Positions 8,404 to 21,707 of a DNA stretch of 24,845 nt are shown one piece after another. Below the pieces are notes generated by a model, which was not told the origin of the DNA, searched no databases, and saw only the letters and a program-made list of their open reading frames with translations. Within the stretch, counting starts at the first letter, position 1, and the number at the start of each line of letters is the position of its first letter. The position numbers and the translations under genes were made by a program. The stretch lies in IMG/VR virus record IMGVR_UViG_3300033143_000243, positions 1 to 24,845 of that record. One strand, written 5' to 3'. This stretch comes from a virus.

Positions 8404-8656
8404 ATCCTTGAGTTATAGTTTTTTTATTGTTTCCTGTTAATTCAATATTTTCTTTTTCTGCTTCAATACGATTTAAAATTTCAAACGCATCAAAAATTGC
8501 TAACTTTTTTGTAGCAGCAGCATTTTTTAATCTATCAGCTGCTAACTCGTCATCAGGGTCAGGTTTTATAATATCTTCCTTAGCCACTTTTATAAGTTGT
8601 CTAACAGCTTGTTCACCCGCTTCAATTATTTTTAATTTAATTTCTTTGGAGTTCAT
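8381..8656 (-). CDS. Small helical protein upstream of terL, possible small terminase subunit (91 aa)
   Basis: A short, almost all-helical, charged protein (EAGEQAVRQLIKVAKEDI, then DDELAADRLKNAAATKKLAIFDAFEILNRI) with no cysteine and no membrane segment. Small terminase subunits, which bind the packaging site and regulate TerL, are usually encoded directly before terL and are helix-rich. Position is the main argument, and no helix-turn-helix can be named with confidence. It starts in an ATGA overlap with the stop of the 187-residue gene and overlaps terL by 23 bases, which implies tight translational coupling. A run of seven A residues lies near its end. It could equally be an unrelated head-assembly helper. 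Confidence 0.5.
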   Translation of the reverse strand: MNSKEIKLKIIEAGEQAVRQLIKVAKEDIIKPDPDDELAADRLKNAAATKKLAIFDAFEILNRIEAEKENIELTGNNKKTITQGFAERRSK

Positions 8657-9216
8657 AAAACCATTGTAATGTTATTAGTATACATTCTATACAACTTCTC
8701 TCCATCCACCTTAAACTCATATTCTGAATGAGGTTCATAAGCTACAATATCACCAGGAGCCACCCCTAGTTTTTTCAACTCACTATTAATATATTTCATT
8801 TCTCCAACTAAGGGTTCGGTAGTCCCTGGCTTTTCAATAAAATAATCTTTCTTTTTTAAAGGTTTTACAAAACAATATTTTGAATAAGCATTCCAACTAC
8901 CGTTTTGTTTATATGCAAAAAATTGACTTTCATCCACAAAAAAAGTATTATCTTTTAAAAAACTTCTTCCACTTTTTTGCTTTCCCTTCATATCATAATA
9001 ATACTTAAATACATTATGATGTACTAAAACTTTATCACCTTTTTTTATTTGTCCATCATACCTTAAAGGAACTTCTTGCACAATTCCCACTCTATTAGAA
9101 AACTTAAAGTCTTCTTGAGATGTACTAGCAATAAAATCCATTCCTTCTATATTAATGGTGTTATCATATCTTTTGTTTTTATCAGGAGTAATAATAAAAT
9201 AATACGGAGACTTCAT
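8653..9216 (-). CDS. Protein with two tandem GroES (Cpn10)-like domains (187 aa)
   Basis: Both halves follow the layout of a GroES subunit. Copy 1 (about 5-103) has an opening strand YYFIITP, a polar loop (18-40) where GroES has its mobile loop, NRVGIVQEV matching the GroES strand that carries GEVLAVG, IKKGDKVLVHHN (57-68) matching VKVGDIVIFND, and TFFVDESQFFAYK (91-103) matching the last strand. Copy 2 (about 113-187) has YCFVKPL, VGEMKYIN, VAPGDIVAYEP (152-162) and ITMVL at the end. The equivalence is from reading by eye and is an inference, but two correctly spaced GD(K/I)V signatures make chance unlikely. It could act as a second co-chaperonin with the phage GroEL (22032-23708), or be a virion protein reusing the fold. 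It sits in the packaging and head operon. Confidence 0.6.
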   Translation of the reverse strand: MKSPYYFIITPDKNKRYDNTINIEGMDFIASTSQEDFKFSNRVGIVQEVPLRYDGQIKKGDKVLVHHNVFKYYYDMKGKQKSGRSFLKDNTFFVDESQFFAYKQNGSWNAYSKYCFVKPLKKKDYFIEKPGTTEPLVGEMKYINSELKKLGVAPGDIVAYEPHSEYEFKVDGEKLYRMYTNNITMVL

Positions 9217-20860: not shown

Positions 20861-20989
20861 TTAACTTCCGCAACTTAAACACTCCTCATCATCAATGCTA
20901 CATTGCCTCTCTGGAACAGTTTGTTCTTGGGCTTTTTCTAGTAGTTTTTCAAATTCGGATTTCTCTTCTTTTTTCTTATCTTCGTTCAT
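20861..20989 (-). CDS. First gene of the late operon, small acidic peptide ending in CLSCGS (42 aa)
   Basis: MNEDKKKEEKSEFEKLLEKA is a charged helix, followed by QEQTVPERQCSIDDEECLSC and GS. Three cysteines near the end, two of them in CLSC, suggest a metal site or disulfide. The ATG at 20989 directly abuts a paired palindrome (20989-21008) and a TATCTTTG promoter box, so it is the first gene transcribed leftward from this point. Its expression should be the most directly affected by any repressor bound there. Confidence 0.65.
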   Translation of the reverse strand: MNEDKKKEEKSEFEKLLEKAQEQTVPERQCSIDDEECLSCGS

Positions 20990-21008
20990 TGTACAAGTGT
21001 TTGTACAA
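20989..21008. promoter_or_regulatory. Paired palindromic operator TTGTACAA-N4-TTGTACAA
   Basis: Two identical 8-base palindromes, TTGTACAA, are separated by GTGT, so their centres are 12 bp apart. The left copy touches the start codon of the 42-residue gene, and the right copy overlaps its -7 box by three bases. Exact TTGTACAA was not noticed elsewhere in the window. A dimeric regulator bound here would block the leftward promoter and lies in the leader of the divergent plus-strand gene, so that gene's product is the obvious candidate regulator. Confidence 0.65.
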
Positions 21009-21013
21009 AGATA
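21006..21013 (-). promoter_or_regulatory. Candidate -7 promoter box TATCTTTG for the late operon
   Basis: The minus strand reads TATCTTTG, 16 bases before the ATG at 20989. It is identical to boxes at 12095 and 24408. Its TTTG is part of the right-hand palindrome of the operator. No -33 TTTG at the normal spacing was found, so the promoter may need an activator. Confidence 0.6.
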
Positions 21014-21028
21014 ATAAAATTAAATTCA

Positions 21029-21484
21029 ATGAATTCGGAAACTAAGCATATCCCCAGAGGATATCTTAAATACTATAGGGTGATTAGATATTTCTTTTGT
21101 GCTAAGTATAATCTCTCTTATCCTGAGTTAGAAATGCTTTTCTTTTTAGAAGGTGAAAAATATTTTTCTCGTCAAGACTTTAATGACTATAATGAATTGT
21201 TTAGCTGGGATAAAAAACGGTTTGAGAAGCTGCGTCAAGAAGAATGGATAAGTACATTTCGTAAACCATACAAAAAAATAAAAGCCATGTATATGGTCTC
21301 TCAAAAAGGTAAGAGGCTAATTGATTCTTTTTATAAAAAGTTAGCAGGAGAAGAAATACCTGTTAGCGAAAGTGGTAATCCTTTATTTAGAAGGAATGTT
21401 TCTTATACCGACAAAGTATATAGGAATATGATAATAGAGATGAATGACTTTATAAAACAACAACGACATCTCTCTCAAGAATAA
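21029..21484 (+). CDS. Possible winged-helix transcription regulator (151 aa), the only plus-strand gene
   Basis: Residues about 20-110 read like a winged helix of MarR-like build: YFFCAKYNLSYPELEMLFFL (two helices), EGEKYFSRQDFNDY, a recognition-helix candidate around WDKKRFEKLRQEEWIS, then a basic wing FRKPYKKIKAMYMVSQKGKR and helix LIDSFYKKLAG. The C-terminal part (112-151) is polar with helix MIIEMNDFIKQQRH. The assignment is by pattern only. The gene is divergent from the late operon across a paired palindrome, the usual layout of a self-regulating controller. An AAATTCA leader precedes the ATG at 21029. Its last 35 bases overlap groES on the other strand. Confidence 0.6.
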   Translation: MNSETKHIPRGYLKYYRVIRYFFCAKYNLSYPELEMLFFLEGEKYFSRQDFNDYNELFSWDKKRFEKLRQEEWISTFRKPYKKIKAMYMVSQKGKRLIDSFYKKLAGEEIPVSESGNPLFRRNVSYTDKVYRNMIIEMNDFIKQQRHLSQE

Positions 21485-21707
21485 TTGTCCTGGCTATTTT
21501 ATTTATTAGCATTGTAAAGCATCTAGCTTTATCATAATATATTTCGTCACCTTCTTTAATTACTGTAACCTCAGTCCCTGGTTTTATGACCGAAGCTTTT
21601 TGATATCTCATTTCTTCTTTGTCATTGGCAGATAACAATAGCCCTGAGTCAGTTACTATTTCTTCATCTATGTCCTGAACTATTATATATTTATTTAGAG
21701 GTTTCAT
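21450..21707 (-). CDS. groES: Phage GroES-type co-chaperonin (85 aa)
   Basis: Caps the GroEL ring as a heptamer. The layout matches Cpn10: PLNKYIIVQDI (3-13) opens the barrel, SGLLLSANDKEEM (21-33) is the mobile loop with a hydrophobic GLLL that should contact GroEL apical domains, QKASVIKPGTEV (36-47) and IKEGDEIYYDKA (50-61) are the core strands, and ILERDVVVVL (76-85) is the last strand. It is shorter than the usual 95-97 residues, mainly in the roof loop. It is the last gene of an operon that starts with groEL, the reverse of the normal bacterial groES-groEL order. Its start lies inside the end of the 60-residue gene and its end overlaps the plus-strand gene. Confidence 0.85.
   Translation of the reverse strand: MKPLNKYIIVQDIDEEIVTDSGLLLSANDKEEMRYQKASVIKPGTEVTVIKEGDEIYYDKARCFTMLINKIARTIILERDVVVVL

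Follow-up and report, generated by a model that had tools for sequence, protein, structure and literature searches.

Prokaryotic bidirectional promoters, described by Warman, Grainger and colleagues, produce two divergent RNAs from pseudo-symmetrical DNA that serves one polymerase orientation at a time (PMC12825309, PMC10268837). In their enterobacterial form, the TATAAT boxes of both directions are superimposed and the start sites usually lie 18 bp apart, and regulators can tip the balance between directions (PMC12825309, PMC10268837). Experiments in E. coli have shown that facing promoters exclude each other if one of the directions is under strong activation (PMC12825309). In Bacteroidota, the sigma-ABfr promoter comprises TAnnTTTG at -7 and TTTG at -33, and the commonest 5' UTR in Bacteroides thetaiotaomicron is 23 nt (PMC7366714). 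Our literature search returned nothing relevant on bidirectional promoters in Bacteroidota or on a phage late regulator of the kind considered here, and the papers covered by it do not describe how these Bacteroidota phages control their late genes.

Here, we analyze a divergent junction in a 24,845-nt stretch of viral DNA (IMG/VR record IMGVR_UViG_3300033143_000243; hereafter, the window) and in the phages that encode a homologue of its regulator. The junction is best read as a Bacteroidota variant of the known bidirectional promoters. Whereas the enterobacterial boxes are superimposed, two whole boxes abut in the phages because TAnnTTTG is not self-complementary; the predicted start separation of about 5 bp falls outside the published 7 to 25 bp, and the arrangement belongs to one conserved phage locus. 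Measured against the sigma-ABfr promoter (PMC7366714), the phage -7 box is near perfect and the implied 5' UTR fits, but two copies face each other, and a position-by-position consensus of the homologue loci revealed no conserved or convincing TTTG near -33.

Gene content and synteny of the junction

The only clear plus-strand gene of the window encodes a 151-amino-acid putative regulator (positions 21029 to 21484). Facing away from it on the minus strand is the first gene of the late operon, an open reading frame of 42 amino acids (20861 to 20989, start codon 20989-20987); a minus-strand frame related to this gene can also be read in the upstream DNA of homologue locus L137. Elsewhere, the window encodes a terminase (phrog_6681), a portal (phrog_6547), a virion structural protein, GroES-like proteins and an endolysin-like protein.

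At its 3' end, the regulator gene overlaps by 35 nt a minus-strand gene for GroES (21450 to 21707; Pfam Cpn10, E = 7.8e-8), and no intrinsic terminator was found between the two. Of 57 loci, 43 have this tail-to-tail coding overlap at exactly 35 nt and 51 have it within 32 to 41 nt, and the conservation of a C-terminal QQRxLxPE motif in the regulator may be due partly to the antisense GroES tail ERDVVVVL. Two GroES-related proteins are thus encoded in one phage: the short one adjoins GroEL, and a longer one (8653 to 9216, 187 amino acids, phrog_13932) lies just upstream of the terminase genes.

Homologues of the 151-amino-acid protein were found in Cellulophaga phages phi38:1, phi13:2 and phi46:3, Flavobacterium elemoviruses, Maribacter phage Panino and MW202828, where the homologue is annotated as a repressor. 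In MW202828, Panino and phi13:2, the regulator gene points away from the block leading to the genes for terminase, portal and capsid, an orientation that a small gene in front of it shares in Panino; in phi38:1 and the elemoviruses, it is co-oriented with these genes. Of the 54 loci with facing boxes (see below), 53 have a divergent minus-strand open reading frame that begins no more than 70 nt away. The initial annotation had placed a lone regulator candidate beside the late operon, and synteny in the homologue loci bears this out: by comparison, the divergent junction is conserved. In a second large clade (L376, L382, L394 and others), the regulator gene shares its strand with groES and follows it immediately, and the facing promoters are missing. 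The host is indicated indirectly, by relatives that infect Flavobacteriia and by a promoter type that fits Bacteroidota.

A predicted MarR-like fold in the regulator

By profile, the 151-amino-acid protein falls in the same family as phrog_17028 (E = 3.3e-12), which carries no assigned function. AlphaFold modeling from an alignment of 66 relatives gave five models, all with a mean pLDDT of 88 to 89 and MarR topology, superseding an earlier nine-sequence run whose results were uneven (pLDDT 84.5 to 46.9). Helices are predicted at residues 12-27, 31-43, 50-53, 62-70, 92-105 and 126-148, and strands at 74-78 and 87-90. The top Foldseek matches in the PDB were all of the MarR family (probability 1.00, E = 1.6e-3, TM 0.44 to 0.48), and a profile of nine relatives matched MarR-family PDB chains at E = 0.018 and weaker, while the wider profile of 66 sequences gave only weak matches to Rot. 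The best structural matches, MarR/SarA-Rot regulators (for example, PDB 3s2w, 4rbr and 8za5), share the order of helices and wing, and the phage gene is likewise divergent from its presumed target; in contrast, sequence identity to these structures is only 10 to 20%. A Pfam search returned no domain match for the window protein, and two of nine family members matched SarA/Rot (PF22381; best E = 1.3e-4). The MarR-like fold class is therefore well supported by modeling and comparison, and formal MarR/SarA membership is not settled. The earlier guess of a winged-helix, DNA-binding protein is supported, since the predicted fold is a winged helix of MarR/SarA type rather than one lacking a DNA-binding fold.

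A palindrome pair absent from the fetched homologue loci

Between the late operon and the regulator gene, the window carries TTGTACAA-GTGT-TTGTACAA (20989 to 21008), located as first described. The octamer occurs exactly twice in the window, as palindrome 1 (20989 to 20996) and palindrome 2 (21001 to 21008), with centers 12 bp apart, and the 16-base pair pattern has a single mismatch-free occurrence. The regulator gene begins 21 bases past palindrome 2, as had been noted. The pair had also been described as exactly covering the stretch from the late start codon to the -7 box; the location stands, but the fit is not exact, as palindrome 1, lying immediately before the late frame, shares the first base of its start codon, and palindrome 2 shares 3 bp with the late-side -7 box, which is opened by its CAA. 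Taken alone, the pair is only mildly unusual: 8.5% of dinucleotide-shuffled windows hold a comparable repeat somewhere (an 8-bp palindrome containing two or more G/C that recurs within 30 bp). Its divergent intergenic placement makes it more unusual.

The initial annotation proposed that two dimers of the regulator bind both palindromes cooperatively, 12 bp apart, and repress or time the late operon. An exact 8-bp palindrome repeat at this spacing and the predicted winged-helix fold would suit such a model, which we nevertheless consider very unlikely. The pair had been expected to recur beside homologues of the gene, and it is absent from every fetched homologue locus, including that of the nearest homologue (67% identity), in searches that may leave out very close relatives of the window. 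A further search with leader DNA for closer relatives returned only known subclade members and unrelated matches. Besides being matched in the shuffled windows, the pair turns up where the regulator family does not: TTGTACAA-N4-TTGTACAA was found in 120 other viral contigs, in 86 of them inside open frames of at least 150 amino acids, and none of these contigs encodes a member of the regulator family or has flanking -7 boxes. Moreover, two winged-helix dimers would have little room at a center distance of 12 bp. As a conserved operator, the double palindrome is rejected, none of the fetched homologue loci having the pair. The pattern is fairly common in viral contigs (L012-L131), frequently in the form of a 12-nt repeat that codes for VVQE-like sequence, and such coding repeats can mislead motif searches.

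Palindrome 1 has no counterpart at any fetched homologue locus and may have a function private to the lineage of the window. We also consider it very unlikely that palindrome 1 functions at the level of RNA or translation, from its place at the extreme 5' end of the late mRNA. It does comprise the last bases before the late frame and the first base of that frame, but it is not conserved in relatives, and a loop-free, perfect 8-nt palindrome would form no stable hairpin by itself.

Two facing -7 boxes at the junction

Aligned with its relatives, the window has palindrome 2 on the junction of two promoter boxes that face each other. A facing pair, TAnnTTTG-N0-7-CAAAnnTA with at most one mismatch, is present in 54 of 57 nonredundant homologue loci (best match per locus; the representatives are related, so these are not counts of independent events), compared to 3.8% of random 120-nt pieces. 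As in a bidirectional promoter, elements serving divergent genes thus occur on both strands of a common stretch in all but a few of these loci; in the window, only the late-side element is intact. The pair is perfect in 36 loci, and across 358 kb of homologue loci, perfect facing boxes occur 36 times at the junction and three times elsewhere, with the back-to-back arrangement found once in all. In MW202828, a distant relative (L132, 19924-19941), -7-like boxes stand back to back as CAAAAATA-CT-TAAATTTG, forming a different palindrome. In Maribacter phage Panino, the facing pair is perfect, TATCTTTGCAAAGATA, and lies immediately ahead of the small gene in front of the regulator homologue.

In the window, the late-side box TATCTTTG (CAAAGATA on the plus strand; 21006 to 21013, minus strand) matches TAnnTTTG perfectly. 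The position of the regulator-side box (20996 to 21003, plus strand) holds the degenerate AGTGTTTG, with two mismatches, and the window is for this reason among the four representatives that drop out when at most one mismatch is allowed. Sequence inspection yields an alternative regulator-side candidate with a single mismatch, TATCTTCG, at 20977 to 20984 on the plus strand.

The distance from the late-side box to the ATG of the regulator is nearly constant, at 22 to 23 nt in 36 of 52 values, which fits the 23-nt UTR of B. thetaiotaomicron (PMC7366714). In one clade (L238, L233, L230 and relatives), the ATG of the regulator follows right after an 18-bp palindrome, predicting an almost leaderless mRNA.

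The junction was also recovered without reference to the gene. A scan of viral contigs, partly redundant, for the palindromic 18-mer TATNTTTGTACAAANATA found it in at least 120 contigs; among the matches listed, 33 contigs encode the regulator family, and in these the site lies mostly directly upstream of the regulator gene. In three metagenome-assembled genomes of host type, the 18-mer occurred once in 4 Mb, not at all in 2.1 Mb and once in 7.8 Mb, giving no sign of general host enrichment in these three.

A probable bidirectional promoter

We consider it likely that the region is a bidirectional promoter comprising two facing -7 boxes of the Bacteroidota primary sigma factor, with one orientation served at a time. 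In the common form, TAnnTTTG-N2/3-CAAAnnTA, the boxes would stand nose to nose, the left one driving the MarR-like gene rightward and the right one driving the late operon leftward. Each predicted start site falls inside the opposing box, and the two promoters should therefore exclude each other. RNA polymerase would occupy one orientation at a time, so that transcription of the regulator and of the late genes would compete. Palindrome 2 would then be largely a by-product of TTTG meeting CAAA, and in the window, the regulator-side box would have decayed, or moved to 20977, beside an intact late-side box, with palindrome 1 as a local addition.

An alternative hypothesis is that one dimer of the MarR-like protein binds the junction, either at TTTGTACAAA or at the facing boxes, and represses transcription both ways, so that the site is promoter and operator at once. 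Classical MarR repressors act at their own divergent promoters. The predicted MarR-like fold, the conserved divergent position and a clade with a perfect 18-bp palindrome, TATATTTGTACAAATATA, as its junction would all accord with such a site, and we regard it as a tentative possibility. Comparison of the loci nevertheless indicates that the junction evolves as two promoters and not as a dimer operator, because the spacer varies, the arms do not covary, the mismatches in the arms are directional and the center undergoes 1-bp indels. Among 55 loci, the window included, the boxes are 0 to 7 bp apart (2 bp in 22, 3 bp in 16 and 0 bp in 5). At the free nn positions, the counts are 15 and 23 of 54 loci compared to 19.0 and 23.2 after permutation, and the arms show no covariation. 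Decay is asymmetric: among the 54 facing-pair loci, the late-side box deviates once and is otherwise perfect (53 loci), while the regulator-side box is perfect in 37 and reads TAnnTTTA, with a final A in place of G, in 17. Between proteins 97% identical, with identical recognition helices, the center of the junction changes from GTTAC to GTAC or from GTAGC to GTAC. Such a 1-bp indel spares both boxes, although it would displace a dimer's half-sites, and the comparative evidence thus speaks against the fixed half-site spacing of a dimer operator. Moreover, the plus-strand leader of the regulator, to the right of the box, has an AT-rich stretch like those in front of other genes in the window, which leaves little unexplained conservation for a separate operator, and the site is missing from the clade in which the gene stands behind groES.

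Implications for late-gene control

With a bidirectional promoter as the preferred reading, mutual exclusion of the two directions, beside the regulator gene, could determine in which order the regulator and the late genes are transcribed; we infer that the MarR-like protein acts on this promoter, where it may also control its own gene, as initially proposed. We further speculate that the junction is a dedicated nose-to-nose sigma-ABfr switch between regulator and late operon in a broad group of Bacteroidota phages, where the regulator biases polymerase competition, with a possible contribution from antisense transcription that runs out of groEL-groES across the overlapping 3' end, to time the late genes. 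We hold this fuller scheme to be rather unlikely as a whole; if it were true, polymerase competition at the switch would decide when the late genes start.

The junction extends the idea of the bidirectional promoter from the TATAAT box to the Bacteroidota -7 box. It also carries a caution: where divergent genes are separated by a tidy palindrome, two promoters may simply meet there, and the palindrome need not be an operator. For the phages concerned, a promoter architecture conserved across many genomes beside a conserved regulator offers a concrete entry point to late-gene control.
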